The notes beneath the pieces are model-generated. The model was not told where the DNA came from and ran no database searches. It saw nothing but the letters and a program-made list of their open reading frames with translations. Source: Lachnospiraceae bacterium (lineage in GTDB: Bacteria; Bacillota; Clostridia; Lachnospirales; Lachnospiraceae). From it: a stretch of 64,000 nucleotides of DNA. Where the stretch lies: positions 31,209 to 95,208 of the forward strand of contig JAQUVX010000015.1 in the NCBI GenBank assembly GCA_028693165.1, given 5' to 3'. Positions 1,635-55,387 of this stretch are shown here, one piece after another; position 1 is the first letter of the stretch, and every line of letters begins with the position of its first letter. A program made the translations under genes and the position numbers.

Positions 1635-3026
1635 TTATGCTTTCATGTATTTTTGATTCTTGCTGTTTGGCTTATCAGGAATGGTCATTTTAAGTTTGCC
1701 GGATTCAAGAAGCGGATTTAGATAGGCTTTTCGGAAGTGTGAACGATTGGAAATGCCGATAAAACTTTGCATTTCTTCTCTTGTTCTTGCTTCGGCGCAA
1801 AAGGCAACCAATTCATCTTGACGCTTATCTTGGATGGTGACTTGGATGGTATCTTGGATGGTGGCACCATTCAAGTTGAAATTCACATTTTTCAAGACCA
1901 CTCGGAAATCGGTCGAAGTGGAGTAAAACTCCGGCTTTAGCTGTTCGGAATATCCGGGGAGCTTTGCTGTTTCACTCAAAATCTTTTTCAACCCGCTGCC
2001 ACGGCGTTCCATGAATTTCATCCGGTGGAACAGGTCAGCAATAATGGGATTGCGGCGTACCGAGCCAATGGTATCAATGTCGTATTCCTGAATAGGCTTT
2101 CCCTCAAACATTCCACCCGGAGATTGGATTTCAAGGCGATCATCATACATATCAATGTGGATTTCACTTCCCATAACGATCAGGTCACGGTGAATCAGGG
2201 CGTTCACCAAAGCCTCGGTCACTGCCCGATCTGCATAGTCGGGTTTATCTACACGATATTGTGATTCTTTCGCAAAGCGAACCTTGGAATTGTTACGAAC
2301 AAAGTTGCTGCCACTTTGCAGCAGATAAATCAGATTGCCCTCATATTCCTTATCGTCCAGTGCATCATCAAAGATAGAACCTTTTTCCAGACCATTCCAG
2401 CGGGTACAGAACAGCCGGGAATTATATACGATATGTTGATCGGCCAGCAGTTTACCTGCGTTTGTCAAAAATCCATCCTTATTTGCCAGCCCGAAAGAAA
2501 TATAATCGGATGGCTCAAAGTGAAGCCCGGTTCGTTCCAGATAGGTGGCCTCCAAAAGTGTAAAGCTGTAATCTGATTTTTTTGCATCTGTGACTAAAGC
2601 ATCAAAGGAACGATTTGTGCCTTTTAAGATCAGTTCATTTACCACATAATCCGGGGCAACAATGCTTTCGTTTCCTACGCGAATATAGGCTTCCATGATG
2701 CCGTCTGCTTTGTAGTAGTATGGCGTGGAGCGTCCGGAAGCCACGGAAAGCTCCAGAATATTTTTGCCATCTTCCTGCACCGGTGTAAGTACAAACTGTG
2801 GCAGTGGAGTAATGCGTTCTTTAATCAAACGGCTGATGATTTCCGCATCAGTCTGAACATTCTCCAGACCGCAAATGCTTCGGTCATCGGCAACACCAAA
2901 GAACAGCGTACCGCCAATGCTGTTTGCAAATGCACTGACGCTTTTGAGCCAGCTTTTTGGTTTCTTTGTTTCCAGAGCAACCTTGAAATCACATTCGGTT
3001 GCTTCGGCAATATGTTTCTCTATCAT
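1635..3026 (-). CDS. AlbA_2 (Schlafen-type) ATP-binding protein
   Basis: A 463-residue protein. The N-terminal ~120 residues match the AlbA_2/Schlafen DNA-binding fold (FKVALETKKP, SAFANSIGGTLFFGVADD). A GHKL-like ATPase half follows, with EALVNALIHRD (about 270) and RRGSGLKKIL (about 345). The C-terminal ~60 residues look like a winged-helix tail (SFIGISNRSHFRKAYLNPLL). Such proteins are common transcriptional-regulator-like genes of Firmicutes and mobile elements, but their targets are mostly unknown. It stands divergent from the relaxase and may have been added to the element, since a relaxosome accessory gene would more often sit here. Confidence 0.8.
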   Translation of the reverse strand: MIEKHIAEATECDFKVALETKKPKSWLKSVSAFANSIGGTLFFGVADDRSICGLENVQTDAEIISRLIKERITPLPQFVLTPVQEDGKNILELSVASGRSTPYYYKADGIMEAYIRVGNESIVAPDYVVNELILKGTNRSFDALVTDAKKSDYSFTLLEATYLERTGLHFEPSDYISFGLANKDGFLTNAGKLLADQHIVYNSRLFCTRWNGLEKGSIFDDALDDKEYEGNLIYLLQSGSNFVRNNSKVRFAKESQYRVDKPDYADRAVTEALVNALIHRDLIVMGSEIHIDMYDDRLEIQSPGGMFEGKPIQEYDIDTIGSVRRNPIIADLFHRMKFMERRGSGLKKILSETAKLPGYSEQLKPEFYSTSTDFRVVLKNVNFNLNGATIQDTIQVTIQDKRQDELVAFCAEARTREEMQSFIGISNRSHFRKAYLNPLLESGKLKMTIPDKPNSKNQKYMKA

Positions 3027-3123
3027 AAGAGCCTCCTTTACATGGGGCGTATGGACAATGAGTAATAAATTATATTATACCCAATTTTTCAGGATATTTC
3101 AATTTGGAAGGGAGGTTTATTTC

Positions 3124-4533
3124 ATGGCAACAACGAGAATTATGCCGCTTCACATCGGCAAAGGGCGGACGGCCAGTAAAGCTGTTTCTGACATCATCGA
3201 CTATGTAAAAAATCCGCAGAAAACAGAGAATGGAAAATTGATTTCCTGTTATGGTTGTGACAGCCGTACCGCTGACGCAGAGTTTGTGTTAGCCAAGCGG
3301 GAATACATTACCAAGACAGGGCGAGTGCGCGGCGCAGATGATGTGATTGCTTATCATCTGCGCCAGTCTTTTGTTCCGGGGGAGATTACGCCGGAGGAAG
3401 CAAACCGTATCGGCTGTGAGCTGGCGAAGCGATTTACAAAAGGCAACAATGCCTTTGTAGTCTGTACTCATACCGATAAAGCGCACATTCACAATCACAT
3501 CATATGGAACGCTGTCACAGTGGACTGTGATAGAAAATTCCGTAATTTCTGGGGCAGCACCAAAGCTGTCCGCCGCTTGAACGATACCATCTGCATTGAG
3601 AATGGATTATCCATTGTGGAGAATCCAAAGCCCCACGGGAAAAGCTACAACAAGTGGCTGGGTGATGCTGCAAAACCGCCGCACCGGGAGCTGCTGCGCG
3701 TTGCGATTGACAACGCTTTAGCGCAGAAGCCGAAAGATTTGGAAGCACTATTTTCCCTTCTTCAACAGGCAGGCATACAAGTGAAAAAGCGCGGGAAATC
3801 CATTTCCCTGAAAGCACCGGGACAAGACCGATTTGCCCGTATGGATACGCTGGGTGAAGATTATACGGAAGCTGCCCTTATCGCTGTTCTTGTCGGAGAA
3901 AAAAGCCATGCGCCACGGAAGAAAAAACTGGTGCAGGTAGAACCCCAAAAGGTCAATCTGCTGGTTGACATTCAGGCAAAGCTACAGGGCGGCAAGAGTG
4001 CCGGTTATGCGCGTTGGGCAAAGGTGTTCAACCTGAAACAGATGGCAAAGACCATAAACTATCTTTCGGAGAATGGGCTTCTGGAATATGCGGCTCTTGC
4101 CGAAAAAGCAAAGGCTGCAACCGACCGCTATAATACACTTGCTGCACAGATCAAGTCAGCTGAAAAGCGCATGGCGGAGCTTACGGTTCTGCGGACACAG
4201 ATCATCAACTATTCAAAGACCCGTGAGGTATATGCAGCCTACCGGAAAGCCGGATATTCTAAAAAGTTTTTGGCAAAACACGAAGCGGATATTCTGCTTC
4301 ATAAGGCCGCGAAGAAAGCCTTTGATGAGCTGGGAGTGCAGAAGCTGCCGCGCGTGAAAGAATTGCAGATTGAGTATGCCACTCTGCTGGAGCAAAAGAA
4401 AAATGCCTATGCGGAGTACCAGCAGGCCAGACAGGAGATGCAGGAGGTTTTGACGGCGAAAGCCAATGTTGACCGCCTGATGGGAACGGAGGAACAGAAT
4501 GCGGAGAAAGAAAAAGAACATGGCCAGCGATGA
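3124..4533 (+). CDS. HUH relaxase (mobilisation nuclease)
   Basis: A 469-residue conjugative relaxase that would nick oriT and lead the strand into the recipient. The histidine cluster HTDKAHIHNHIIWN (about residues 118-131) is the metal-binding HUH motif of MOBP/Tn1549-type enzymes. After residue ~300 the protein is helical and charged, with coiled-coil-like stretches. The frame is open further upstream, but ATG 3124 is chosen because GGGAGG stands ten bases before it and MATTRIMPLHIGKGRTA is the typical relaxase opening. The gene is followed by closely spaced palindromes, a plausible oriT region, and then by the RIT insertion. Confidence 0.88.
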   Translation: MATTRIMPLHIGKGRTASKAVSDIIDYVKNPQKTENGKLISCYGCDSRTADAEFVLAKREYITKTGRVRGADDVIAYHLRQSFVPGEITPEEANRIGCELAKRFTKGNNAFVVCTHTDKAHIHNHIIWNAVTVDCDRKFRNFWGSTKAVRRLNDTICIENGLSIVENPKPHGKSYNKWLGDAAKPPHRELLRVAIDNALAQKPKDLEALFSLLQQAGIQVKKRGKSISLKAPGQDRFARMDTLGEDYTEAALIAVLVGEKSHAPRKKKLVQVEPQKVNLLVDIQAKLQGGKSAGYARWAKVFNLKQMAKTINYLSENGLLEYAALAEKAKAATDRYNTLAAQIKSAEKRMAELTVLRTQIINYSKTREVYAAYRKAGYSKKFLAKHEADILLHKAAKKAFDELGVQKLPRVKELQIEYATLLEQKKNAYAEYQQARQEMQEVLTAKANVDRLMGTEEQNAEKEKEHGQR

Positions 4534-4571: not shown

Positions 4572-4662
4572 CACAGAATGAAATTCTGTGTTCAAAGGGG
4601 CTTGGGGGCGATGCCCTCAACAAGCGGTTTGTGGCTATCTGGATAGCCACAAGCATTGCTTG
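4572..4662. repeat. Cluster of four hairpins behind the relaxase, possible oriT region
   Basis: Four inverted repeats follow each other: CACAGAAT-gaa-ATTCTGTG (4572-4590), TTGGGGGC-gat-GCCCTCAA (4602-4620, one G-T pair), GTGGCTATC-tg-GATAGCCAC (4631-4650) and CAAGC-att-GCTTG (4650-4662). No coding frame of note crosses them. Their place directly downstream of the relaxase fits an origin of transfer or a transcript end. The nick site is not identifiable by eye. Confidence 0.45.
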
Positions 4663-4668
4663 CCGATT

Positions 4669-4688
4669 GTATCAGGAATTCCTGATAC
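4669..4688. repeat. Perfect 20-bp palindrome beside the RIT left end
   Basis: GTATCAGGAATTCCTGATAC is perfectly self-complementary and consists of two head-to-head copies of the ATCAGGAA core found in the RIT ends. It lies five bases outside the left terminal repeat and has no counterpart at the right end. It could be part of the target, a relic of an earlier insertion, or a recombinase crossover site. Confidence 0.6.
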
Positions 4689-4693
4689 TACCG

Positions 4694-4842
4694 GTTATCA
4701 GGAAGTGTGAGTTATCAGGAATGCTCTTAAAAATCTTTGATACATAAGGCTAAACACACAAAATATTCCTGATAACTTTTTCGATTTTTACACTATTTCA
4801 AAATAATCCTGTCTGTTTCCTCATTTATGAATTCCTGATAAC
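4694..4842. repeat. RIT left end: four-site terminal array
   Basis: The 11-mer GTTATCAGGAA occurs at 4694-4704 and 4711-4721 in direct orientation, then inverted (TTCCTGATAAC) at 4766-4776 and 4832-4842. Offsets are 17 bases between the first two, a 44-base gap, then 66 bases between the last two. The right end repeats exactly these distances in mirror image. Confidence 0.85.
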
Positions 4843-4896
4843 CCAGAGTATCCCTTACAATAGAATTGTAATTATTCTATATGTAGGAGGTGCTCT

Positions 4897-6117
4897 ATGA
4901 AAATCGAAGATTTGTGTCAGCAAGTCATAAGGGCTATGATTGACGCCGGATACACACAATGCTGTGCATGGTCCCGTTACAGAGATTTCTATTCTCCCCT
5001 GATTTCTTTCTATCACAGTTGTGGCGAGGATGAATTTAGCCTTGAAATGATGGTCAGATACAGTGAGTATTCCCATGCCAGGATGGAGGAGGAAAAAATT
5101 TGCGAACACCGTTATTATCAAATCAAGGACGGAATCAAGCGGATTATTGAATTCCATGAAACAGGGAAACTGTATTGGTCTTCCCAGGCCAAAGAATCAA
5201 AATTCCCTGTCAATGAGTATTACAGCAACCTGCTGGATCAATTCATTGGAAGTGAAAATTTCCATACGAATACCCGTGGGGATGTAATCTGGGCTTCCAA
5301 GCGGTATTTCTCCTGGCTCATGCAGGAAGGATTCGCGGATTTGAATGGTGTCGGCGTGACACAGATTCAGAAATATCTCTGCGAATGCCATGACCACTTA
5401 AAAGAAACATCTATTCATAACATACTACTCTATCTGAAAAAGCTGTACTGCTTCTTGAAAGATACAGGGTATTCAGACCACGATTACAAAGTATTGCTTT
5501 CCATGAAGATATGCCGTAAAAGCAAAGTGCTTCCAGCTGCAACACCGGAAGATGTAAACGCCATACTGAATGTATTGGATATGAGTTCTGTGACTGGAAA
5601 AAGGGATTATGCCATTATTCTTTTAGGCTGGGTAGTCGGCCTCCGGGCGATTGACATTATCAGGCTGAAATTGACTGATATTGATTGGAAAAAAGGTGAG
5701 ATCAGAGTTCTTCAAAGGAAGACTTCTGTGCCAGTCATTCTTCCCCTGACAAAAGATGTGGGGGAAGCCCTGCAGGATTACATCTTAAACGGGCGTCCTA
5801 ACTGTGATTATCAGGAAATCTTTCTGCGGATTCGCCCACCGTTCCGGCCATTTAAGGATGCTGTCTGCATTGGAGACCAGTATGATGTTTATTGCTATAG
5901 GGCAGGAATTAAGAGGGTGCCGTTTGATGGGAAAGGATTCCATTCACTGCGGAGGGCTGTCGGAAAAAACATGGTCACATCTGGAGTATCCGTGAATACT
6001 GTCAGTCAGGTTCTCGGACATACAGCTATGAATTCTGCAAAGAAGTATATCTCGTTGGACTCAAAGAACCTGAAAGAGTGCGCCCTTGATTTTAGCGGAA
6101 TCGAGGTGGCAGAATGA
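4897..6117 (+). CDS. RIT tyrosine recombinase 1
   Basis: A 406-residue site-specific recombinase, the first and longest of the trio. It has an N-terminal core-binding region (about residues 95-195) and a catalytic domain from about 220. Catalytic residues are visible: Arg in GLRAIDIIRL, Lys in LQRKTSVPV, His/Arg in FHSLRRAVG, His in LGHTAMNSAKKY and the final Tyr. The N-terminal ~90 residues are an extra domain with no clear relative. The start ATG follows GGAGG at 4887-4891. The stop overlaps the start of the next gene (ATGA), so the trio is one coupled operon. Confidence 0.88.
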   Translation: MKIEDLCQQVIRAMIDAGYTQCCAWSRYRDFYSPLISFYHSCGEDEFSLEMMVRYSEYSHARMEEEKICEHRYYQIKDGIKRIIEFHETGKLYWSSQAKESKFPVNEYYSNLLDQFIGSENFHTNTRGDVIWASKRYFSWLMQEGFADLNGVGVTQIQKYLCECHDHLKETSIHNILLYLKKLYCFLKDTGYSDHDYKVLLSMKICRKSKVLPAATPEDVNAILNVLDMSSVTGKRDYAIILLGWVVGLRAIDIIRLKLTDIDWKKGEIRVLQRKTSVPVILPLTKDVGEALQDYILNGRPNCDYQEIFLRIRPPFRPFKDAVCIGDQYDVYCYRAGIKRVPFDGKGFHSLRRAVGKNMVTSGVSVNTVSQVLGHTAMNSAKKYISLDSKNLKECALDFSGIEVAE

Positions 6118-7070
6118 GCAATTATGTCAGTGGCTTTGCCCCTCAGATAGAAGCCTTTTTTGATTTGCGAGTCGCACTTGGTCATTCCCCTAAGACCCAC
6201 GCTGGAAGTCTAAAACTGTTTGACCAGTATTGTGCTGCAGCCTATCCGCTTGAATCACAACTGACAGAAGAAATCGTACTTGGGTGGCTGGAGGATAGAT
6301 GCACCGATGTTTATGAAAAAGCTACAACGATGCGCCTGTTTGGCCAGTATCAGTGTGCTGTCGGACAGGCAGCCTTTGTCCTTCCGGAAAAATATGTGAC
6401 ACAAAAGCAGGACTTTTCTCCATATATTTTTTCTAATGAAGAACTAAGCCGCCTGTTTGCAGCTATTGACAGAACCCAGCCGTCAAAAGCGGAACCATTT
6501 ATGGATGAGATTGCCCCTGTGCTTTACCGAATGATTTACACCTGTGGGTTGAGGCCACGAGAAGGGCGTGAGCTTAAGACGGCGAATATAAACCTCAAAA
6601 CAGGGGAAATCCTTATCGCCCATACAAAACGTAAAAAAGACCGGATTGTTGTCATGTCTGATGATATGCGGAAACTTGCAGTAAAGTACAATGAAAAAAG
6701 GGGGATTTTCGGTAAGTCAAACGAATACTTTTTCCCTTCGTGGAATGGTGGCGACATGACGCAAAAACAGGTTGACTATTATCTGAAAAGTGCATGGAAA
6801 AAAGCAAATCCGGATTGTAGACAGTTGCCCCGTATCAGAACATATGATCTCCGGCATCGCTTTGCTTCTGCCTCATTGATGCGCTGGATTGACAAGGGGG
6901 AACTTTTGCAGGCAAAACTTCCGTACCTCCGTACATACATGGGACATGGCAGTTTGTCAGAAACGGTGCAGTACATCCACATCCTGCCGGAAAACCTGGT
7001 AAAGACTTCTGGAATTGATTGGGGCGCTTTTGATGAAATCATACCGGAGGTGCCGGAATGGGAAAAGTAA
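6114..7070 (+). CDS. RIT tyrosine recombinase 2
   Basis: A 318-residue tyrosine recombinase. Catalytic-domain motifs are CGLRPREGRELK (Arg), HTKRKKDRIV (Lys), YDLRHRF and MGHGSLSETVQY (His, Tyr). The first His of the usual HxLR box is Tyr here. This recurs in some RIT and phage-like recombinases, so it need not mean loss of activity. It starts in the ATGA overlap with gene 1 and overlaps gene 3 by 13 bases. Three different recombinases probably act together on the complex ends. Confidence 0.87.
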   Translation: MSNYVSGFAPQIEAFFDLRVALGHSPKTHAGSLKLFDQYCAAAYPLESQLTEEIVLGWLEDRCTDVYEKATTMRLFGQYQCAVGQAAFVLPEKYVTQKQDFSPYIFSNEELSRLFAAIDRTQPSKAEPFMDEIAPVLYRMIYTCGLRPREGRELKTANINLKTGEILIAHTKRKKDRIVVMSDDMRKLAVKYNEKRGIFGKSNEYFFPSWNGGDMTQKQVDYYLKSAWKKANPDCRQLPRIRTYDLRHRFASASLMRWIDKGELLQAKLPYLRTYMGHGSLSETVQYIHILPENLVKTSGIDWGAFDEIIPEVPEWEK

Positions 7071-8104
7071 AAGACATAGAGCTGTTTACGCTGATACATG
7101 ATTTTTTCAAAGTGTATCTGCCGAACCAGCGCAAATCCAGCCCTCATACAATTCGTTCTTATCAAAAAGCATTGGATTGCCTGCTGGATTTTGCTGCCGC
7201 ACAGCATGGCATTTCATTGAGTCAGGTCACCTTTGACATGATAAACAGTGTTGTATTATCAGATTTCCTTGATGGGCAGGAGAAAAATGGCATCTCTGTT
7301 TCAACGCGGAATCATCGGCTGAAAAGCATCCGCGCTTTTTATTCCTATGTTGCCATGAGAAAGCCGGCGTTGGCAATCCACCAGATGGAGATTTATAAAG
7401 TTCCATTCAAAAAGGCAGAAACAGTTACCACCATTGACTACATGAGTGAGACGGCGATGAGCGCTTTATTGGCGCAGCCGGACGCAACGGATAAAAAGGG
7501 ATTGCGGGATCAGTTTCTCTTACTTCTCCTATATGATACCGCAGCAAGGATCCAGGAGCTTGTGGATATCAAAGTGTGTGATATAAAGCGAGGAAAGACA
7601 TCTACGGTCATCCTGCACGGAAAAGGCTCCAAAGTACGAACTGTCCCGCTGATGCAAAAAACCATGCAGCACTTCGAGAATTACAACAAAGTCTTTCATC
7701 CAGGTGTAGATGAGTATTCCGAACATCCACTCTTTTACTCAGTAATTGGACGGAAGCAGGCCGCATTGGAGGAAAGCTCTGTAAGGAAGCTGGTTCATGC
7801 TTATGGAACTGCTGCCAGGGAAGTGTGCCCTGAAGTTCCTGATTCTGTACACCCCCATATGTTCCGGCATAGCCGGGCCATGCACCTGTATCAGCACGGT
7901 ATGGACCTTACGCTGATTTCCCAGTGGCTAGGCCATGCCCAGTTAGAAACAACTTTGATTTACGCTCACGCCGACACGGAGCAGAAAAGGAAAGCGATTG
8001 AGCAGGCCACCCCTGCAGACAGCCCGCTGAAAGCTCATCTGAACGCAGAGAAATATCAGGTTACAGATGATGAAATGTTAAAACGGCTTTATGGGCTGAA
8101 ATAG
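7058..8104 (+). CDS. RIT tyrosine recombinase 3
   Basis: A 348-residue XerD/integrase-like recombinase with a SAM-like N-terminal domain (PHTIRSYQKALDCLLDF) and a complete catalytic set: Arg in TAARIQELV, Lys in LHGKGSKVR, HMFRHSRA, WLGHAQLETTLIY. The start ATG 7058 lies within the end of gene 2 behind GGAGGTGCCGG. The stop is eight bases before the first terminal 11-mer of the right RIT end, so there is no room for cargo. Confidence 0.88.
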   Translation: MGKVKDIELFTLIHDFFKVYLPNQRKSSPHTIRSYQKALDCLLDFAAAQHGISLSQVTFDMINSVVLSDFLDGQEKNGISVSTRNHRLKSIRAFYSYVAMRKPALAIHQMEIYKVPFKKAETVTTIDYMSETAMSALLAQPDATDKKGLRDQFLLLLLYDTAARIQELVDIKVCDIKRGKTSTVILHGKGSKVRTVPLMQKTMQHFENYNKVFHPGVDEYSEHPLFYSVIGRKQAALEESSVRKLVHAYGTAAREVCPEVPDSVHPHMFRHSRAMHLYQHGMDLTLISQWLGHAQLETTLIYAHADTEQKRKAIEQATPADSPLKAHLNAEKYQVTDDEMLKRLYGLK

Positions 8105-8111
8105 TACAAAA

Positions 8112-8260
8112 GTTATCAGGAATTCAGAATCGCATTACTAAATGTATGACAGCCTTCAAAACAGGAATTCCCTAAAAGTTATCAGGAACTTATTTGTATC
8201 AATCCTTGTAAAATAGGGCTATTTTCAATGGGTTCCTGATAACTCACAATTCCTGATAAC
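8112..8260. repeat. RIT right end: four-site terminal array
   Basis: Copies of GTTATCAGGAA at 8112-8122 and 8178-8188 are followed by inverted copies TTCCTGATAAC at 8233-8243 and 8250-8260. Distances read inward (17, gap of 44, 66) equal those of the left end. The outer 28 bases match the left terminal repeat in inverted orientation except for one base. Confidence 0.85.
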
Positions 8261-8328
8261 TCCGCTACCCCTCCCCCCGTTCCGCTTCCCCCGTCCGCTC
8301 TCGCTAATAAGACACCTGGGAGCAGGAA

Positions 8329-21993: not shown

Positions 21994-22435
21994 TGTAATG
22001 CCGACCCCGACGAACAAGACCAGCATTTCCGTTCCTGAGATGCGGCAGTTGCTGGGGCTGGGAAAAACAGATAGCTACTGGCTGGTGAAGAAAAATCACT
22101 TTAAGACAATTATTGCAGCCGGTCAGATGCGTATTATGCTGGATAGCTTTGAGGAGTGGTATGCTGGTCAATTCCATTATCGTAAGATAACTGGCGAAGC
22201 GCCCGGTTCAAAGTGGACGGCAATTACAATGTCTGTCAGTGAAACGGCGGCACTGTTAAATATTAAAGAAGCAACCCTTTATGACTTGCTGAAAAAGAAA
22301 TCTTTTGAAACCATGAAGATTGATAATCGAACACGGATTGATAAGGCAAGCTTTGAAGTATGGTATGAGCGGCAGAGACATTATAAAAAAGTCATTGATA
22401 GAATTGGAGGCGATCTGAATGGCATCAATTGTTAA
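21986..22435 (+). CDS. Double excisionase-type HTH protein
   Basis: A 149-residue protein with two Xis/MerR-like HTH units: SISVPEMRQLLGLGKTDSYW to about residue 55, and MSVSETAALLNIKEATLYDL to the end. The frame is open further upstream, but ATG 21986 behind AAGGGGGTG is the likely start. It overlaps the preceding gene by eight and the integrase by 17 bases, so it is tightly coupled to both and is probably the recombination directionality factor. Confidence 0.8.
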   Translation: MSDVMPTPTNKTSISVPEMRQLLGLGKTDSYWLVKKNHFKTIIAAGQMRIMLDSFEEWYAGQFHYRKITGEAPGSKWTAITMSVSETAALLNIKEATLYDLLKKKSFETMKIDNRTRIDKASFEVWYERQRHYKKVIDRIGGDLNGINC

Positions 22436-23807
22436 GAGAAAAAGTAAGTTTTCCGTGGTTTATAACTACACGGATGAAAACGGAGGGAAGCGTCAGCGGT
22501 GGGAGACTTTTCCCACAAATGCAGAAGCAAAAAAACGTAAAGCACAGATTGAATTTGAACAAAGTACAGGGACATTTATTCCACCGGTAGCCAAGACCCT
22601 AAGAGAACTGTTGGAGGAATATATTTCGATTTACGGGGTGAACACATGGGCGCTTTCCACCTATGAAAGCCGTAGAGGATTGATTGACAATTACATCAAT
22701 CCGATTATCGGAGATATGCAGCTGGATGCATTGAATCCTCATGTGATGGATCGCTTTTACAGGGATTTGCTGAAAGTAAGGGCAAAGCCCCGGCCCTACC
22801 AACCAGATAAGGTAGACTACCTTTCTCCACGGACAGTAAAGGAAATACATAAGATACTTCGCAATGCTTTTAATCAGGCAGTAAAGTGGGAGCTTATATC
22901 CAAAAACCCAGTAGTGAATGCGACCTTGCCAAAATGTGAAGCCAAACCGAGAGACATCTGGACTGCGGAAACCCTTTTCCATGCCCTTGAAGTGTGTGAT
23001 GATGATAATTTATCACTGGCGCTCAATTTGGCGTTTTCCTGCTCTTTGAGAATGGGAGAAATGCTTGCTCTCACTTGGGACTGTATTGACATCTCACAGG
23101 AAAGCATCCATGCCGGTACAGCAAGTATCTATGTGAATAAGGAATTGCAGAGAGTGCAGCGCCAGTCGTTGGATGCACTCGATGGAAAAGGCGTAATCAA
23201 AATTTTCCCAGCCATCCTGCAATCCAGACATACTGCGTTGGTTTTGAAAGAGCCAAAGACTAAAACCAGTGTTCGGAAAGTGTTTCTGCCAAAAACAGTA
23301 GCCGAAATGTTGATTGCCCGGAAAGAGGAGCAAGGCGAAATGAAGGAACTGTTCGGAGATGAGTATGCAAATTACGACTTGGTATTCTGTTCTCCATTGG
23401 GAACACCTATTGAGGGACAGGTAATCAATCGGGCATTGAATAAGCTGATTACCGACAATAATTTTCCGAAGGTGGTATTCCATTCACTTCGCCACAGCAG
23501 CATCACTTATAAGCTCAAACTGAACGGCGGCGATATGAAATCAGTGCAAGATGATTCTGGTCACGCACAGATTAAGATGGTGGCTGATGTGTATTCTCAT
23601 ATCATTGATGATGACAGGCGGCTGAATGCGCAGAGATTTGAGGAAGCATTTTACTCTGGGCATCAGACGGATGCACCGCTGGAGAAAGAAATGGTTGAAA
23701 CTGAACAAACAGCTGACGCAGAAAACTCTGAACAGGAACTTTTGACGCGGCTTCTCAAGAATCCACAGATGGCAACGCTCCTCAAGACGCTGGCACAGAC
23801 CCTATAA
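22419..23807 (+). CDS. int: Tn916-type tyrosine integrase
   Basis: A 462-residue integrase that would excise and integrate the element. It has an arm-binding N-terminus (RKSKFSVVYNYTDENGGKRQ), a core-binding domain (about 60-165) and a catalytic domain with Arg in CSLRMGEML, HSLRHSS, SGHAQIKMVADVYSH including the Tyr. About 60 C-terminal residues after the catalytic Tyr are acidic and variable. ATG 22419 follows TTGGAGG. It is the last gene before the attachment site, as usual. Confidence 0.92.
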   Translation: MASIVKRKSKFSVVYNYTDENGGKRQRWETFPTNAEAKKRKAQIEFEQSTGTFIPPVAKTLRELLEEYISIYGVNTWALSTYESRRGLIDNYINPIIGDMQLDALNPHVMDRFYRDLLKVRAKPRPYQPDKVDYLSPRTVKEIHKILRNAFNQAVKWELISKNPVVNATLPKCEAKPRDIWTAETLFHALEVCDDDNLSLALNLAFSCSLRMGEMLALTWDCIDISQESIHAGTASIYVNKELQRVQRQSLDALDGKGVIKIFPAILQSRHTALVLKEPKTKTSVRKVFLPKTVAEMLIARKEEQGEMKELFGDEYANYDLVFCSPLGTPIEGQVINRALNKLITDNNFPKVVFHSLRHSSITYKLKLNGGDMKSVQDDSGHAQIKMVADVYSHIIDDDRRLNAQRFEEAFYSGHQTDAPLEKEMVETEQTADAENSEQELLTRLLKNPQMATLLKTLAQTL

Positions 23808-41300: not shown

Positions 41301-43019
41301 TTATAAATGTTCGTTTGTATTATGCGTTATCTGAAACATCTCAAACTCTGCTGGCCGTATCGGCGCAATCCCAATCTCACAGATCAGCCTGCCGTTTAGA
41401 ATATCATCCTGGGTCATGGTAGAGGGACCGATGTTGATAAAGAACGCCTCGTCCGCACTGGAGCCAGCCAGCGCGCCGTTTCTCCACAGGGTGTCCAGGA
41501 ACATGCGAATGGTTCTGTCTGCGCGCGCCCAAAGATTGGCATCATTTGGCTCAAAACTTACCCAGCTTGTTGCAGCACGAATGCTTTCCTTCACGTAGAT
41601 CAAGAGTCTTCGGACGTTGATATATTTCCATGGCGAATCGGAAGACATGGTTCTGGCACCCCAGACACGAATGCCTTGTCCCGGCAGTGAGCGAATCAGA
41701 TTAATTCCTTTTGGACTCACGGTGCTCTGCGTGCCTTCATTATAATCGACACTCAGACCAACACATTGGCGAAGGACTTCGTTGGCCGGTGCCTTGTGTA
41801 CACCGCGAGAACAATCTACACGGGCGTAAACTCCCGCCACAGACGCACTTGGAGGAAAATAGCAGTTCTTTTTCTTGACCGAATCAAACATATTCAGCCA
41901 GGGGTGGTAGATTGCGGCATAGGAAGAGTCAAAATAAGAGCGATGGCGGAGCATTTCATCTGAAGTGTGTGTATCCTGTGGCATATCCAGGATTGCAAAA
42001 CGATTTTCCATGGTTTCACAATGCGCGATCAGGGCACGTTGGATCTCTGGGACTGTCACGCCGGGCATTGCCATGATGCTGACATCATCGATCTCTTTGA
42101 AGGCATGTAAGCCGCTGCGTTTTCCAGGGCCATTATCCTCTCCCAGGAAAAGAGCGGCATCCTCGGCGGGGAAGGTTTTTCCATCCTTTAGAAAGCCGGT
42201 ATATGCGGTATTATCCAAATGGAACTTTGCCATCCAGGCGGAAAGTCCGTTCTCCGCCTCATCTTCTGCGGAAAAAGAGGCATGCAGGAGGATTCCATTT
42301 GCCGTGACCCGGTTCACAAAATCTGCCGCCGCAGGATTCAGCGTGATGCGGTAAGCTTCTTTTATGTCATCACATTTTGCCAGCAGGTCAAAGCCGATTC
42401 GGTGCAACGATATGGAAGGGACCGGGGTGTTGTCCACATAAGGAATCGTAAAGGCGTGTTCCAGCTCAAGTGCTCCGTCGAGGACACGGACGATGCGGTT
42501 GTATTCGTTTCCCTCGCTGGAAACAAGCTCCACAAGATCACCTGCTTCAAATCCGCTGCTGCTTTTTACGCGGAAAATCTGCTGTTTCTCATCTCTTGCT
42601 TCTTCCAGGATATTCGTTTTGAACAGTTGCTGCTTTTCGAGAGAAATCCGAATTTCATTGCCCCACTCGCCGACACTGCCGGCTTCCATATGTAGTCTGA
42701 TACCTTCGTGTGCCAGCTCCATCGCAGCAACGGTATCTTGACTGCTTGCGACACGCATGACATAACAGGAGCTTCCGCCATTTGCAAAAAACTGTTCGAC
42801 TCCATAAGCCAGATAGCGATACTTCACTGAGATATCCAGGTATCTTCCAAACTGATACCCAAAATCGGTCGGACTTTGAATCCGCACCGGCTTTCCGGTA
42901 ACCGGACCGCGCGTTGCGAGTCCGACAAAACCGGCTGTCGAGGTACCGACACCTTCTATTACGTTCCTATCATCGTTAAATTCTTCCACAAATACTCCAG
43001 GAGATAGATATTCTGCCAT
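41301..43019 (-). CDS. Phage-type tail sheath protein, orphan
   Basis: A 572-residue contractile tail sheath protein. It opens YLSPGVFVEEFNDDRNVIEG, then GTSTAGFVGLATRGPVTGKP. The conserved C-terminal half contains YINVRRLLIYVKESIRAATS, followed by VSFEPND and a final beta segment IGIAPIRPAEFEMFQI. ATG 43019 has GAAGGAGG upstream; the frame's earlier start lies before the ribosome site. No tube, baseplate, spike or tape-measure gene is in the window. Either the rest of an injection system lies elsewhere, or the sheath is a domesticated remnant. Confidence 0.87.
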   Translation of the reverse strand: MAEYLSPGVFVEEFNDDRNVIEGVGTSTAGFVGLATRGPVTGKPVRIQSPTDFGYQFGRYLDISVKYRYLAYGVEQFFANGGSSCYVMRVASSQDTVAAMELAHEGIRLHMEAGSVGEWGNEIRISLEKQQLFKTNILEEARDEKQQIFRVKSSSGFEAGDLVELVSSEGNEYNRIVRVLDGALELEHAFTIPYVDNTPVPSISLHRIGFDLLAKCDDIKEAYRITLNPAAADFVNRVTANGILLHASFSAEDEAENGLSAWMAKFHLDNTAYTGFLKDGKTFPAEDAALFLGEDNGPGKRSGLHAFKEIDDVSIMAMPGVTVPEIQRALIAHCETMENRFAILDMPQDTHTSDEMLRHRSYFDSSYAAIYHPWLNMFDSVKKKNCYFPPSASVAGVYARVDCSRGVHKAPANEVLRQCVGLSVDYNEGTQSTVSPKGINLIRSLPGQGIRVWGARTMSSDSPWKYINVRRLLIYVKESIRAATSWVSFEPNDANLWARADRTIRMFLDTLWRNGALAGSSADEAFFINIGPSTMTQDDILNGRLICEIGIAPIRPAEFEMFQITHNTNEHL

Positions 43020-43196
43020 GGCTATGCCTCCTTCTCTGCTATATGATGAATCAAGTATAGCAGTAAGGATTAAAAACAACAAGAATAAATAAGGTGTTGG
43101 AATTCAGGAAACGGCCAACCCTTCTTCTAATTTAAGTTAAAAGTTAATATTATATCATAAAAATCCAGATTGTAAAGAGCGAATTATAGAAACAAA

Positions 43197-43291: not shown

Positions 43292-45388
43292 ATGTCCGAT
43301 ATGCAGCAAAAGAAAACAATTCTGATTGTTGACGATGTGGAACGAAACCGAGCCATTTTGTCAGAGATCTTTTCGAAATATTACACCATCATCGAAGTTG
43401 ACAACGGAAAAACCGCCTATGAATATATTCTGGCAAATCAGAAGGACATTGACGTGGTTCTGCTCGACTTGGTGATGCCGCTGATGGATGGGTTTCAGCT
43501 GCTCGAAAAAATCAAATGCTGCCCCAGTCTTGCGAACATTCCTGTAATCGTAACCTCCCAGGCAGGAGAGGACAACGAGGCAAAGGCGCTCGAAATGGGC
43601 GCAGCGGATTTTATTGCCAAGCCCTACAACGAAAAAGTGGCATTGAGGCGTGTGGATAATGTGCTTGCAAGCAGTACGGTTGTCAGGCTTGAGGAAGAAA
43701 AAGCAATCTATCAGAGAATGCGGGAAATGGAACAAAAAGCGAAAACAGACGCTTTGACCGGACTGAATAACCGTGCTGAACTGGAAGCACAGATGAATTC
43801 CTTTTTCTCAGGGGGAACGAACTTAAATGCCCTGTTCCTGATTCTTGATATCGATAATTTTAAGCTGGTCAATGACCGGTTCGGCCACACCAAAGGAGAT
43901 GAAGTGCTCCAGAAGGTGGCCCAGATACTTGGCTCCTGTTTTCGTAACGAGGATCTCACCTGCCGCATGGGTGGAGACGAGTTTTCCGCGTTTATCCGCG
44001 GAGAATTTGCACCGGAGGATTTGTCTGTGCGCTTGCAGCGGCTGTGTGAAAAGCTGCGGTTTCAGATTGAAGATATGAGCATCTCCTGTTCGATCGGTGC
44101 CTGTTCCTCCCCTGCCTACGGAAGGGATTATCAGACCCTGTATCAAAACGCGGATATGGCATTGATGACCGCAAAACGGCTTGGCAAAAACCAATATCAG
44201 ATTTTCGGCGAAGACACGCAGCTTCCATCCCATATGCTGCTCTGCAATGTGGACTGGCTGATGGATGAGGCCAGTGATGCGGTTATGGTTTGTGATACAA
44301 GTGATTACAGCCTGCTCTACCTCAATAACGTTGCCTGTGCAATCGCCGGAAAAAGCAAAAAAGAATGTATGGGCCAGACGTGTTACGAAGCCATATGGAA
44401 CCGGACTTCTCCGTGCAGGTACTGTCTTGATTCGGATAAGCCGTCCAATCTTTATCACGAGTATGAGGTTCATCCGGAAGGATCTGACCGCAGCTTTATC
44501 GTAAAAAGCAAGCTTGTGGACTGGGGTGGAAATCTTGCACGGATTCAATATATTCAGGACAACACACACAAAGCGGCGATCGCCAAGAAGATTTCCGATA
44601 TTTCGGCTGATCGCAAACGACTGCTCGATTTAATGCCGGGCGGGATTTTCCGCTACAGCGCAGAAGACGAGTCGTTCGATTTTGTCAGCAAAAATATGCT
44701 GAACATGCTGGGCTATACCCAGGAGCAGTTTGACGAAAAATTCCAACACAAATTTTCGAGACTGGTGTGGCACGAAGACCGGGATCGCGTAGAACGGGAA
44801 ATCGCAGATCAAATAGCTGTGAGCGACACGGATGAGTGCGAATACAGAATTGAGAAGGCAAACGGTGCGCTTTGCTGGGTGCATGATGTGGGGCATCTTG
44901 TTCGCAGCGAAAACGGAAAAGCATGGTTTTATGTGACCATTGTGGATATTACCGCACGTCAGCAGCATCAGGCAGAACTTGAGAATCACCAGGAAATGAT
45001 TCGAATTGCCCTGCTTCATTCCGGGCTGCAATATTGGGAGCATAATCTGCTGACTGATTGCTGCACAAACGGAATCAGGGATGCAGAGTATGGATTTGCA
45101 GATGTAATCCCCAATTACAGCCGTTTCTTAGAAGACAGCGGAACCATTCCGGCGGAATATGTTGAGCTTTACCGCAGGAAACAGCAGGAGCTTTATGATG
45201 GTGCCAAACAGGTGTGTTATGACATTCCGCTCAATGATCCGCAGGGAAATCAAATATGGTGGCGTGTGCGCTGTACGAATCTTTTTGATGCAGCGGGCAG
45301 ACCAGTGAAGACCATCGGCACCGCCGAAAACATTGATCAATTAAAAAAGCTGGAGCAGGCGGCACTGCTCCGAAATAAAAAAGGATAG
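43292..45388 (+). CDS. REC-GGDEF-PAS diguanylate cyclase
   Basis: A 698-residue cytosolic protein. It has an N-terminal receiver (about 8-125, Asp in VVLLDLVMP) and a GGDEF domain (about 150-305) with intact RMGGDEFSAF and DALTGLNNR, so it should make c-di-GMP. Two or three PAS-like domains follow (about 320-430, 445-570 and a weaker one to 690). PAS 1 contains CYEAIWNRTSPCRYC (Cys364, 375, 378). Having PAS after GGDEF is unusual. It is the only evident output protein of the operon. The four kinases downstream could phosphorylate its receiver. Confidence 0.88.
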   Translation: MSDMQQKKTILIVDDVERNRAILSEIFSKYYTIIEVDNGKTAYEYILANQKDIDVVLLDLVMPLMDGFQLLEKIKCCPSLANIPVIVTSQAGEDNEAKALEMGAADFIAKPYNEKVALRRVDNVLASSTVVRLEEEKAIYQRMREMEQKAKTDALTGLNNRAELEAQMNSFFSGGTNLNALFLILDIDNFKLVNDRFGHTKGDEVLQKVAQILGSCFRNEDLTCRMGGDEFSAFIRGEFAPEDLSVRLQRLCEKLRFQIEDMSISCSIGACSSPAYGRDYQTLYQNADMALMTAKRLGKNQYQIFGEDTQLPSHMLLCNVDWLMDEASDAVMVCDTSDYSLLYLNNVACAIAGKSKKECMGQTCYEAIWNRTSPCRYCLDSDKPSNLYHEYEVHPEGSDRSFIVKSKLVDWGGNLARIQYIQDNTHKAAIAKKISDISADRKRLLDLMPGGIFRYSAEDESFDFVSKNMLNMLGYTQEQFDEKFQHKFSRLVWHEDRDRVEREIADQIAVSDTDECEYRIEKANGALCWVHDVGHLVRSENGKAWFYVTIVDITARQQHQAELENHQEMIRIALLHSGLQYWEHNLLTDCCTNGIRDAEYGFADVIPNYSRFLEDSGTIPAEYVELYRRKQQELYDGAKQVCYDIPLNDPQGNQIWWRVRCTNLFDAAGRPVKTIGTAENIDQLKKLEQAALLRNKKG

Positions 45389-45398
45389 AGGCGGCAAT

Positions 45399-48300
45399 AT
45401 GGACACGAAATTAACGATGCTCATTGTCGATGACATGGAAGCAAACAGGGTGACCATGACGGTTGCTTTTTCTGAAGAATACAACATTTTATATGCTGAA
45501 AATGGGCAAGAAGCCATCGATGTCATCCAAAAGCACGGCAAGGAGATCTCAGTCATTCTGCTGGATATTTGTATGCCGGTGGTGGATGGGATGGGGGTAC
45601 TCAAGTGGCTGAAGGGCAGCACCTTTCACCAGATTCCGGTGATTGCGGTAACCGCAGAGGAAAGTGGTCAGCTGGAGGCGCTGGAAAACGGAGCGGCAGA
45701 TTTCATTGCAATGCCGACAGATAAAAGAATCCTACAAGCACGCATAAAAAACGTGCTTGGTTGCTGTGCGCCTGAAATGACGCAGCTGTATGCCGGTCTG
45801 GTCAATGAATCGCGGAGTGCCATTTATGTCAGTGATACAGCGAATTATGATTTGCTGTACATTAACCAGAGAGGTCTTGATTTGATGGGAGGGAGCCGCG
45901 CGGCCTGCACAGGAAAAAAGTGTTATGAGGCCTTGTTTCATCGGACAAGCCCCTGTGAATTCTGCAAAATCGGTTCGATGCATCACGATCAGTTTACGGA
46001 AAGAGAATTCCCGTATTCCCGGGATGGCAACATCTATCATTTGAGGGGAAAGCTGACTGATTGGAATGGACTTGAGGCACATGTTGAATACATCGAAGAT
46101 GTGACGCAAAGAAAAAAAGCGGAGCTGGAAAACAAGAAGCTGATGGAACAGCTCGCCTCTGTCATTGAGCATGTGCCGGGTGGTATGTGCCTGTATCACG
46201 TGGACCAAAACGGAATCCATCCGCTTGTTCACAATCAGGCCTTCTATGAAATTTTTGGTTATTCCACGGATAATGTGAAATCGGTACAGCAGCAGACAAG
46301 CTACTTAAATGTGCATCCGGATGACCTTGCAAAGCTTCAGTCAAAGATGAACGAAGCGATCCGGACATCGTCTCCGGTAAGCCACACCTACCGTGTGTGG
46401 AATGACGGCAGCAAGGAATATATCTGGATCTATCTGAATGCCATGATCATAGACCAGCCGGACGGCACAAAGCTTTGCTATGTGAGCTATACCGATGTAA
46501 GCGAAGAACGCAGGATTCAGCAGCAGCTCATCCAGGCAAAAGACGAGATGCAGCTGTTGATGAAAAAAGAAGAGGAAGCACTAAACAGCTACCGAACCTT
46601 AGTCAATACCGTTCCCGGCGGAATTGCGCTGTACAAGATCGACGGTGATAAAGTGAAAGTACCATTTTACAGCGATGGATTGTGTACATTGTCAGGCTAT
46701 GCGAGAGAAGAGCTGGAAGTGATTTGTGAAGATGACGTGATGGCGCTGATCGAGCAGGATGATGTTTCCTCACTTCGCGAAGCCATTAAAGATGTGGCTC
46801 ACAATTACTCAAGTATGGATTTGACCTATCGCATCCGCACAAAATCCGGTAAGCCATGCTGGGTTAATATGCGCAGCACTTATTTGAGAAGTGAACATGG
46901 AAAACCTGTTTTTCATGCTGTATTTATCGATGTGGATAGAATAAAAACCATCGAAGAATCAGAGAAAGAACAGCAGCTGCGTTATCAGGTGGCGATCAGA
47001 AGCTCCGGAATCAATGTGTGGGAATATGATATTCAGAGAGATTTACTGACCGTCGTATCAAATTCTTCTCGAATCAAGCAAAATTGCTTTACGATTGAAA
47101 ACTACATTCGTTCAACGGTAGAAAACGGATACGTGAGAGAAGACTGCCTTGAGACTTTTTACAGTGTTTTTGAACGGCTGCGGAATGGTGCGAAAGAAGT
47201 AAGCGAAGATATCTGGTATAAAACCACGGACGAAGCCGGCTGGTGGTGCGAACGCGTCATTTATACTACGGTATTTGATGAAAAAGGGACTCCGGTCAAG
47301 GCATTCGGTGCCGGCAGAGATGTGACCCGCGAAAAAGAGGCAATCAAGAAGTTTGATGAAGAAATGTCCTACCGCTCTGCCTTACAGCAAACCATCATCG
47401 CCTCCCTGAAAATCAATCTGACGCGGAATACGATTATCGAAGGAAACAGTCCGTTCCGCGTGATCAGTGAGCTTATAGAGAGCAATGATGCAGACCTGTA
47501 TTTCTCAAAAACCGCGGACTATTTTCTCGGCGAAAAAAGCAAAGAAGAATATAGAACCACCTTTAACCGCCATTCGCTGCTGGGTTATTTTAACCGCGGA
47601 GATTATTCGATTTCCATGGAATCTACCCGCGTTTTTGATACCAATAAAATATATTGGATCAAATACAATGTCCATCTCATGAGAAATCCGGAAACAAAAG
47701 AAATTTTTGCTTTTATTGTGGCGAATGATACAACCGATGAACAAGTGATGAAATCGATAATGGAAACCATCGCCAGAACGGATTATGACTTTTTTGTTGT
47801 CGTGAACGGCGCAAGCGATACCGCCGTCGATTATACGGTGAATTCCGAAAAACGACTTTTTACGGAGGATCAGCCGTTTCAGGAACACAACGAGATGTTG
47901 ATCCGGCAGGTTGTCTGCGCAGAAGACGTGGAGCGCGTTGTGGAAGAATGCCGCATCTCCAATGTTTTAAAGAAGATTGGAAATGGAAATGTACATAAAT
48001 TTGATTTTAATATGCGGGACAAAAACGGCGAGATTCGCCGCAAACAGCTGCAGCTGACCTTGATTAGCCAGGATCGAAAAGCATATCTGATGACACGCAT
48101 TGATGTAACCAGTGTATACGAGGAGCAAATGCGGCATCAGAAAGAGCTGGAGAAGGCACTGATTTCTGCAAAGCAGGCCAACCATGCAAAATCAGAATTT
48201 CTGGCACGCATGAGCCATGATATCCGCACACCCATGAATGCGATTATTGGCATGACTGAGCTTGCCAGGTATGAAACGAATTCTCCTAAGACAGTTGAAT

Positions 48301-49349
48301 ACTTACAGAGCATTGATGCTTCCAGCCATTTTTTGCTGGGGCTGATCAATGATATCCTCGATCTGAGTAAAATTGAAAGCGGTAAAATCAAGCTTCAGGA
48401 AGAACCCTATAGACTGGAAGAGTTCAAACGCAATATCAAAACCGTCATTTTTCCGTTGATAGAGGCAAAGCATATTGACTTTGTGATGAATATAAACTGC
48501 GATGCCGACTGTATTATCACGGACAAGCTCCGGTTTACCCAGATCTATTTTAATTTGCTGTCCAATGCGGTCAAGTTTACGCCCGAAGGCGGCCGTATTG
48601 AATTTTTCAGTGAGCATATCCCTGACCGCGACGGTAAATACGGGCTGCGATGCAGCATTCGTGACAATGGCATCGGCATGAGCCGTGCATTCCAAAAGCA
48701 CCTTTTCGAGCCATTTTCCCAGGAGAACAGAGGGTCGAATTCTGCCCAGCCGGGCACAGGACTGGGGCTTGCGATTGTGAAAAATCTGGTCGAAGCGATG
48801 GGCGGTTCGATCAAAGTATCCAGTACCATGGGAAAAGGCACGGAATTTACCGTGGAAAGCTATGTCAAGACGGTGCAGATGAACGAAACGGATGCAATCG
48901 CCTCAAGCGATTTGGAAGTTAATTTATCGGGAGCAAGCATTCTTCTGGTGGAAGACAATCATCTGAATGTTGTGGTTGCAAAGCGCCTTCTTGAACGAAA
49001 GGGGTGCATCGTGGACGTGGCGGCCAACGGTCAGCAGGCCGTGCAGCGGTTCTCGGAAAACGCTGAATTTTATTATGATGCAGTTCTCATGGATGTGCGC
49101 ATGCCGGTTATGAATGGCCTTGAGGCAACGGAACAAATCCGTGCCCTTGAGCGCGCCGACGCAAAAACGATCCCCATCATCGCGATGACAGCAGATGCCT
49201 TTGTGGAGGATCGGGACAAAACAAAAAATGCGGGGATGGACGCACACTTGTCCAAACCGATTGATTCAAAACTGTTATACCGCACACTTTATTCATTTAT
49301 TAATAAGAACAAGGCGGTAAAGAAGGAGGATGTGCGAAATGACAGATAA
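45399..49349 (+). CDS. REC-multi-PAS hybrid histidine kinase
   Basis: A 1316-residue protein without membrane segments. Order: receiver (5-120, VILLDICMPV), a PAS with CYEALFHRTSPCEFC (Cys175, 186, 189), then four to five further PAS-like units to about 920. HisKA follows with SRMSHDIRTPMN-type sequence (ARMSHDIRTPMNAI, His near 940), then HATPase (NLLSNAVKFTPEGG near 1050, GTGLGLAIVKN) and a C-terminal receiver (Asp in AVLMDVRMPV near 1231). It starts ten bases after the previous stop and overlaps the next gene by 11 bases. An N-terminal receiver in front of PAS units makes it a phosphorelay integrator. Confidence 0.88.
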   Translation: MDTKLTMLIVDDMEANRVTMTVAFSEEYNILYAENGQEAIDVIQKHGKEISVILLDICMPVVDGMGVLKWLKGSTFHQIPVIAVTAEESGQLEALENGAADFIAMPTDKRILQARIKNVLGCCAPEMTQLYAGLVNESRSAIYVSDTANYDLLYINQRGLDLMGGSRAACTGKKCYEALFHRTSPCEFCKIGSMHHDQFTEREFPYSRDGNIYHLRGKLTDWNGLEAHVEYIEDVTQRKKAELENKKLMEQLASVIEHVPGGMCLYHVDQNGIHPLVHNQAFYEIFGYSTDNVKSVQQQTSYLNVHPDDLAKLQSKMNEAIRTSSPVSHTYRVWNDGSKEYIWIYLNAMIIDQPDGTKLCYVSYTDVSEERRIQQQLIQAKDEMQLLMKKEEEALNSYRTLVNTVPGGIALYKIDGDKVKVPFYSDGLCTLSGYAREELEVICEDDVMALIEQDDVSSLREAIKDVAHNYSSMDLTYRIRTKSGKPCWVNMRSTYLRSEHGKPVFHAVFIDVDRIKTIEESEKEQQLRYQVAIRSSGINVWEYDIQRDLLTVVSNSSRIKQNCFTIENYIRSTVENGYVREDCLETFYSVFERLRNGAKEVSEDIWYKTTDEAGWWCERVIYTTVFDEKGTPVKAFGAGRDVTREKEAIKKFDEEMSYRSALQQTIIASLKINLTRNTIIEGNSPFRVISELIESNDADLYFSKTADYFLGEKSKEEYRTTFNRHSLLGYFNRGDYSISMESTRVFDTNKIYWIKYNVHLMRNPETKEIFAFIVANDTTDEQVMKSIMETIARTDYDFFVVVNGASDTAVDYTVNSEKRLFTEDQPFQEHNEMLIRQVVCAEDVERVVEECRISNVLKKIGNGNVHKFDFNMRDKNGEIRRKQLQLTLISQDRKAYLMTRIDVTSVYEEQMRHQKELEKALISAKQANHAKSEFLARMSHDIRTPMNAIIGMTELARYETNSPKTVEYLQSIDASSHFLLGLINDILDLSKIESGKIKLQEEPYRLEEFKRNIKTVIFPLIEAKHIDFVMNINCDADCIITDKLRFTQIYFNLLSNAVKFTPEGGRIEFFSEHIPDRDGKYGLRCSIRDNGIGMSRAFQKHLFEPFSQENRGSNSAQPGTGLGLAIVKNLVEAMGGSIKVSSTMGKGTEFTVESYVKTVQMNETDAIASSDLEVNLSGASILLVEDNHLNVVVAKRLLERKGCIVDVAANGQQAVQRFSENAEFYYDAVLMDVRMPVMNGLEATEQIRALERADAKTIPIIAMTADAFVEDRDKTKNAGMDAHLSKPIDSKLLYRTLYSFINKNKAVKKEDVRNDR

Positions 49350-52300: not shown

Positions 52301-52569
52301 GGTACTACGATGCCATCTTAATGGACATTCGGATGCCCCAGATGGATGGCTTGCAGGCGACAACCACAATCCGCCACATGAGCAAAGGAACCGCAAAAAC
52401 GATTCCGATTATCGCAATGACTGCAAATGCGTTTGATGACGATGTGCAAAAATCGAAAGCAGCAGGCATGGATGCCCACCTTGCAAAGCCCATTGAACCG
52501 AAGCAGCTGTTTCAAACCCTCTATGATTTTCTTTACGGAAGAAGGGATGAAAGCGATGACTCGAATTAA
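49339..52569 (+). CDS. PAS hybrid histidine kinase with two receivers
   Basis: A 1076-residue cytosolic protein: PAS-like units over the first ~520 residues, HisKA (SRMSHEIRTPMNAI near 558-571), HATPase (NILSNAIKFTPEHG near 677, GTGLGLAICKN), then two receivers. The first is at about 800-920 with VLIDWKMPEM, the second at about 940-1060 with AILMDIRMPQM. ATG 49339 is chosen over the ATG at 49330 because GGAGG 49325-49329 is correctly spaced to it. The first receiver has DWKMP in place of the usual DxxMP with hydrophobic residues, a feature shared with the last gene of the operon. Confidence 0.87.
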   Translation: MTDKQVELEKPWNEEECRHELELYRASRLGGVFTVVVDEYFTLLYGNDKYFHMHGYTKESMAARLHNHCVEYVHPEDLPAVMQTINDTLAAGRDYAEWVMRVITGTGVIRYILCSGLFSTADDGRTIMEGVVMDITRQKETEEALRLSEEKFRIATENSDVSFWSYNLLTKEIIQTPASQMRHGYEEIVTDVPDSVIQSGFVRQDSVKAFTELYEHLQQGAKTCSADIWFRTPDKKGWWCEHIDYANVFDKNGRPVCAYAVGKDVTSVKLAEQRYNEELAYSKAIQHRRLLAKARSNMTQNIVESYIAKDYVSVMTEGVSYSVGMEDLAQTAFTEEQQEQVRQMLSRDRVLKAFDQGDTQYSFDYQRKTQDGTIIWVNTTVKSYQNQQTKDIMSFMYTYDINEEKIKDGIIQAVSEIEHDFVAFVDLKNNRYLMYLGNKENGPLPEKSSDDYMTTMTQTNREIVIAEDAERINHDMMPETIKKNLEKKRVYSTVCGIRHTDGGVRQKRIQYAYLDRLSEQVVITRSDVTELFNQQRQQHDMLQTALLAAEQANSAKSDFLSRMSHEIRTPMNAIIGMSTIAAQSIGDDAQVADCISKIGISSRFLLSLINDILDMSRIESGKVLLKNEKIPFEEFLNGINSICYNQAAAKNIDYENIVDASVEDYYMGDAMKLQQVIINILSNAIKFTPEHGKVSISVRQMKKQKNDAVLRFVINDTGCGITEEYLPHLFEPFSQEDSGTTAMYGGTGLGLAICKNLVAMMDGTIAVRSIKGVGSEFTIDVKLGITEETKTRYARKQHYNFAELKALVVDDDVVVCEQAVITLKEIGVKSEWVDSGHKAVARVKEKWANKEYFDLVLIDWKMPEMDGIETAKQIRKIVGPEVTIIIMTAYDWAAIEHEAKLAGVNLLMSKPMFKSSLISAFEKAFCEKQDETEIKQDFNFEGKRVLLVEDHPLNVEVAKKLLERKGFLVEHAENGVQAVEMYAKTPERYYDAILMDIRMPQMDGLQATTTIRHMSKGTAKTIPIIAMTANAFDDDVQKSKAAGMDAHLAKPIEPKQLFQTLYDFLYGRRDESDDSN

Positions 52570-55360: not shown

Positions 55361-55387
55361 AGCAATGCAATGTGGAGGAAGCAAAAC

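Follow-up and report, generated by a model that had tools for sequence, protein, structure and literature searches.

What is the unit that moves when a recombinase in trio (RIT) element inserts, and how might three tyrosine recombinases share one reaction at its ends? The question is raised by a 64,000-nucleotide stretch of Lachnospiraceae DNA (the window), which contains a RIT element whose overlapping ritA, ritB and ritC genes are flanked by eight perfect copies of GTTATCAGGAA, four at each end and in mirror image. A sequence-only reading of the window had placed the left boundary of this element at 4694, in its terminal site. Six bases outside that site, counted in the 10-mer frame, lies a 20-bp palindrome, P (GTATCAGGAATTCCTGATAC, 4669–4688), the proposed left end of the mobile unit. 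We conclude that the unit probably begins at 4669 rather than at 4694, with P and a 6-bp spacer belonging to it on the ritA side. In what follows, E denotes positions 4695–8259 of the window and L-numbers denote loci of relatives.

It is a RIT element, as had been supposed from its sequence: the three recombinase reading frames are intact, and the list of open reading frames (ORFs) contains only these three genes between the ends. ritA (4897–6117, 406 amino acids), ritB (6114–7070, 318 amino acids) and ritC (7058–8104, 348 amino acids) lie adjacent, in that order, on the forward strand. They overlap by 4 bp (ritA/ritB) and 13 bp (ritB/ritC), the latter being longer than the 4–8 bp of published RIT elements, given the start chosen here. 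All three products match the Pfam family Phage_integrase, each is closest to its own class, and residue alignment shows that the catalytic residues are kept (R250, K275, H349, R352, H375 and Y384 in RitA; R147, K172, Y244, R247, H278 and Y287 in RitB; R164, K189, H267, R270, H293 and Y302 in RitC). An inverted repeat of ~28 bp with an adjoining palindrome completes the RIT features. The left sites occupy 4694–4704 and 4711–4721 on the forward strand and 4766–4776 and 4832–4842 on the reverse strand, while the right sites occupy 8112–8122 and 8178–8188 (forward) and 8233–8243 and 8250–8260 (reverse). Start-to-start steps of 17, 55 (a 44-base gap) and 66 bases from the left end are repeated identically inward from the right. 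An exact match search thus bears out the earlier count of four copies per end, with mirrored order and distances, and the outermost 28 bases do differ, as described, at one position. With at most one mismatch, GTTATCAGGAA occurs 14 times in the window, as compared with a mean of 1.27 and a largest count of 6 in shuffled sequence (0 of 100 shuffles reached 14). The element is single copy: a search of its own genome found no second one, the sole match being that of its two ends to each other.

Relatives were sought with RitA as query in 299 genomes of the window's family, of which 267 gave matches, mostly to ordinary integrases and with weak scores. Around the better matches 49 stretches were fetched which, with L004 and one stretch from the window's own genome, made 51 loci; the A-B-C trio was present in order in 40. 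Plasmid records supplied further RIT elements from Pseudomonadota and one actinobacterium, while a RitA scan of assembled genome contigs gave one distant locus only and a scan of viral contigs gave no match.

Comparison of ends over all elements revealed a common anatomy: a 6-mer (a), the 20-bp P, a second 6-mer (n'), E, and a third 6-mer (c). In the window this reads CCGATT (a, 4663–4668), P, TACCGG (n', 4689–4694), E, CTCCGC (c, 8260–8265), where P is palindromic at 10 of 10 positions and consists of two abutting arms of the element's motif (18/20). Perfect examples of the 6-mer relationship come from Cupriavidus pHG1 (TAGCGC-P-GCGCTA-E-TAGCGC) and Rhodococcus (TACCAG-P-CTGGTA-E-TACCAG). When the P side was chosen by script, with palindrome and motif as the only criteria and a motif threshold of at least 13/20, P was found in 20 of the 29 elements whose ends could be scored (L035, L061 and L004 were excluded). 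Among these 20, which are not all independent, a equalled c exactly in 14 and the reverse complement of n' equalled a exactly in nine; mean matches were 5.25/6 and 4.8/6, respectively, versus 1.89 with shuffled partners, and the maxima over 5000 shuffles were 3.05 and 3.35. Strict complementarity of a and n' was rejected as a rule on account of L089, L091–L093, L095 and L096.

The fate of the 6-mers was read from empty targets. Near-identical elements of Sinorhizobium medicae reside in different IS110 transposase genes, at V-K codons (GTNAAR), and by their sequences these distant rhizobial relatives appear clearly to have moved. Seven S. medicae copies have a common P, and five Salipiger copies have a P of their own; its orientation relative to ritA is identical in all 12, on the ritA side in seven and the ritC side in five (some copies share flanks: L091/L092, L099/L101 and L100/L101). 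P therefore holds one orientation to E within a lineage, on either side of it. With respect to the reading direction of the transposase, P lies 5' of E in all 14 tabulated IS110 insertions, Roseomonas L095 and L097 included, whatever the direction of E. Uninterrupted IS110 targets align to the joined flanks (466/466) without P, three sites having exact flanks and one ~98%. Their single 6-mer is GTCAAA at the L091/L092 site (L104, L154), GTCAAG at the L088 site (L107, L153) and GTGAAG at the L089 site (L151, L152); at the L093 site it is also GTGAAG (L105), which is uninformative since a and c are the same there. In all four informative copies (L088, L089, L091 and L092, at three targets) the 6-mer of the target is c and not a, which indicates that c is the target's own and that a comes with the element. 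By analogy, CTCCGC in the window would be the target's own and CCGATT would have been brought in.

For L094 the only empty relative, at 94%, has GTGAAA (5/6 to c, 4/6 to a), and for L095, L097 and L102 the search found no empty partner that crosses the junction well. Three loci were left out of the 6-mer table: L090, whose right end is rearranged; L096, which has P at either side and inverted-repeat flanks; and L103, for which the fetched stretch lists no ritA. We abandoned the notion that each insertion copies n' from the target, because L091 and L092 occupy the same target with c constant while n' and a differ. The sequences thus show the order a, P, n', E, c, a P that stays constant among near-identical copies at different targets, and empty targets holding one 6-mer and no P.

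At L047, L051, L059, L067, L070 and L085–L102 the insertions lie in transposase genes. Several of the plasmid copies have IS110 annotated beside them, and for the draft loci IS3, IS21-like and IS256 elements are candidate hosts, called by eye from short translations. The draft contigs of L035, L039, L046, L050, L060, L074 and L078 are ~3.1–3.7 kb long and end within or at the RIT element, as expected if several identical copies had been collapsed.

In the window's own family the boundary can be approached from the left flank, for which 58 of 397 family genomes gave a match. The window element, L035, L036 and L038 start, in different genomes, right after a hairpin (CAACAAGC...GCTTG; 4618–4662, forward strand) that lies 3' of a relaxase gene (2875–4533), and in all four P is nearest the hairpin, whichever way E points. 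A tblastn search of 25 fetched loci with this hairpin found no rit gene. In such unoccupied loci GCTTG is followed by CC or CT, in 22 distinct continuations; homology with them therefore ends by 4664, thirty bases to the left of the boundary first proposed (4694).

We favour, with some reserve, the view that E, P and a 6-bp spacer (~3.6 kb in all) move together, by way of a circle with two core sites and 6-bp crossovers. In such a circle P would separate the two ends of E, so that a core-type junction (E end, 6 bp, P arm) would lie on each side of P, and one crossover would read nearly as the reverse complement of the other. Either junction could attack the target and the 6-mer would set the orientation, with the consequence that P would always come to lie to one side of the target, regardless of the direction of E. 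Accessory sites are absent from P, as against three or four at each end of E, and this asymmetry may mark the arms for the recombinases; an arrayed E end facing a bare P arm could also determine in what order the steps take place. That the target's 6-mer stays beside E and the one brought in lies beside P points to exchange of a single preferred strand, as has been described for strand-biased circularizing integrative elements (SEs). RitA, which is described in PMC8138268 as having two core-binding domains, might be able to span two sites. We infer the circle, the strand preference and the roles of the three recombinases from these arrangements.

Several observations weigh against this view. 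No circle has been seen, and the window element is single copy in its genome. Its exact empty site was not found, matches to the right flank among the 397 family genomes beginning ~155 bp in. Its 6-mers fit poorly (a and c agree at 1/6, the reverse complement of n' and a at 4/6), and the rule is invisible in this copy alone. The fate of the 6-mers is known from four copies at three targets, all of them rhizobial and distant (26% RitA identity), and n' pairs incompletely with a in L093, L089, L091, L092, L095 and L096. The orientation of P in Roseomonas L095 is reversed relative to S. medicae. P-like palindromes without E occur at the GCTTG insertion point, within the first 40 bases, in L112, L124 and L127. 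Finally, nine of the 29 scripted elements fell below the P threshold: the script failed to find the register of L042 and L051, the latter by eye an exact fit to the 6-mer anatomy; L097 scored 12/20, with P evident; L052 and L074 have too little flank; and L037, L049, L066 and L071 have no P.

Three loci stand apart in their flanks. L096 has inverted copies of one flank on both sides and P at both ends, while L049 and L071 are flanked by inverted copies of one flank with P at neither end. They may have arisen as reciprocal products when copies with P on opposite sides recombined or, in drafts, they may be assembly artefacts.

As a more tentative extension of the circle model, P may serve as a portable recombination partner that accompanies the element, providing two opposed att sites with complementary crossovers and fixing strand and side, such that an element with symmetrical ends could insert either way at one oriented target, possibly via a folded single strand. 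The run E end, n, P, n', E end would form one long hairpin. As with the attC sites of integron cassettes, a junction that folds could restore a core site in double-stranded form; the likeness lies in the folding and is, for RIT elements, speculation only.

Alternatively, P could be part of the target, E alone moving and favouring sites next to a palindrome similar to its own motif. The resemblance of P to that motif fits this account, as do the palindromes in L112, L124 and L127 and a second P-like sequence beyond the opposite end in L036 and L038. Nevertheless, four rhizobial targets have empty relatives without P, the same P travels with copies at different targets, and P is absent from that position in L110 and L111, which match the window's left flank at ~82% identity. 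We therefore consider the account unlikely overall; P might be a target feature within the window's clade, and it is also possible that the palindromes in L112, L124 and L127 are excision scars.

It is rather less likely still that the window element is a relic, formerly mobile and no longer so. There is one copy, and its 6-mers follow the rule badly; against this, all three frames and the catalytic residues are intact and the eight sites are perfect. Among relatives, R and K are kept in RitA in 46 of 46 aligned rows, while in RitB all 45 rows retain R, K, R, H and Y, with the second-box histidine position occupied by H in 25 and by Y in 20, as in the window element (Y244). RitC retains R and K in 43 of 43 rows and the remaining catalytic residues in 42.

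Returning to the arrays, the offset between the two outer sites was left free between 11 and 30 (20 competing offsets, no shuffle control) and scanned in the 43 elements with enough flank, L056, L060 and L078 being excluded for too little of it. An offset of 17 was best in 27 of the 43, and in 24 of the 29 scoring at least 32; it was not best in 16, L097 and L099 among them. The motif itself varies by element, for example TTATCAGGAA, TTATCCCGAA, TTATGCAAAG and AAATCCAAAC. A third, inverted site was present at both ends of 27 of 32 scored elements, and in 23 of these 27 its distance was equal within 1 bp at the two ends; in L043, L093, L097 and L099 there is a discrepancy of 10 or 11 bp, roughly a turn of the helix. 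The combination of two outer sites at a 17-bp offset with an inverted third site recurs in the window's family, in Pseudomonadota and in Actinomycetota. From this conservation it is fair to suppose a defined protein–DNA assembly at each end, as the sequence-only reading had suggested; each recombinase may perhaps take its own site pair there, as that reading also proposed. The exact four-site pattern (17/44/66) is not a rule of RIT elements. The fourth inverted site, 65–66 bp further in, was seen only in the window element (4832–4842 and 8112–8122) and four clade relatives: L036, L037 and L038, at both ends, and L035, at its one complete end. A RitB tree of 45 rows places these five inside a seven-row clade (100/99), whose other members are L039, a truncated contig, and L040, with three right-end sites and no array found at its left end. 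The variation that would have counted against a defined assembly is in part real: site number varies between clades and third-site distance between elements (64 to 92), while within an element the spacing is matched.

The arrays might instead be mainly operators of the ritA promoter, with the right-hand mirror image an old duplication. The left array does lie upstream of ritA, where a promoter-like match (4737–4764) overlaps it; such matches are no commoner than in shuffles (four found versus a mean of 7.2). The right array lies 3' of ritC with no element gene behind it, the two ends agree in spacing in 23 of 27 elements despite differing motif sequences, and the outermost site is at the insertion junction, all of which makes the operator account very improbable. 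Cut and paste by a DDE-like enzyme with a 6-bp target duplication can hardly be correct: a and c are identical in 14 of the 20 elements, but the element encodes three tyrosine recombinases with conserved catalytic residues and no DDE enzyme, and where a and c are unlike, only c stands in the empty site, contrary to what duplication predicts.

The sequence-only reading had further placed the element inside a conjugative element. This is plausible, given the relaxase gene and a tyrosine integrase (Phage_int_SAM_3; 22419–23807) that possibly belongs to the surrounding conjugative element. On the opposite strand, an ORF for a Schlafen AlbA_2 protein (1635–3026, reverse) overlaps the start of the relaxase ORF. 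A phage tail sheath protein (41301–43082, reverse) is encoded at a distance from the RIT element, and 43292–58624 holds a run of large PAS/histidine kinase/response regulator/GGDEF hybrids.

Comparison with empty sites thus gives an insertion unit for RIT elements, a crossover of 6 bp and a tendency to target conserved stretches within other mobile elements. With three or four sites per end, a bare P and a 6-mer that reports the strand, the sharing of one reaction by three recombinases becomes testable. Provisionally, what appears to be new is the rule for the arrays, the fourth site particular to this clade, the finding of P as part of what moves, the 6-mers and the empty sites.

RIT elements were described as overlapping ritA-ritB-ritC genes of ~3.5 kb with a 28–29 bp inverted repeat and an overlapping palindrome, found in other mobile elements (Van Houdt 2012, PMC3414803); the trio, the inverted repeat, the palindrome beside the genes and insertion into mobile elements are common to those elements and the one in the window. 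The available part of that account reports no convincing further binding sites, regards mobility as undemonstrated, and describes no arrays, 6-mers, moving P or empty-site comparison. The accessible text on SEs (PMC10214605) lists the target specificity and empty site of RIT elements as not tested. SEs are alike in having a 6-bp crossover, with the target's 6 bp at one fixed end and the donor's at the other, and a fixed side for the target's 6-mer is likewise seen in four of the four informative rhizobial copies. They differ in having four genes (intA, tfp, intB and srap), in sides that are fixed by intA, where in RIT elements they are fixed by P, and in that no P is reported in the same text. 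The four genes of SEs and GInts include Tfp/GinC and Srap/GinD; the window element has only three. According to the same source, the Tn554 family and GInts also use cooperating tyrosine recombinases, and Tn554 shares the 6-bp footprint, but their gene sets, TnpA, TnpB and TnpC in the former and GinA–D in the latter, differ from that of RIT elements.

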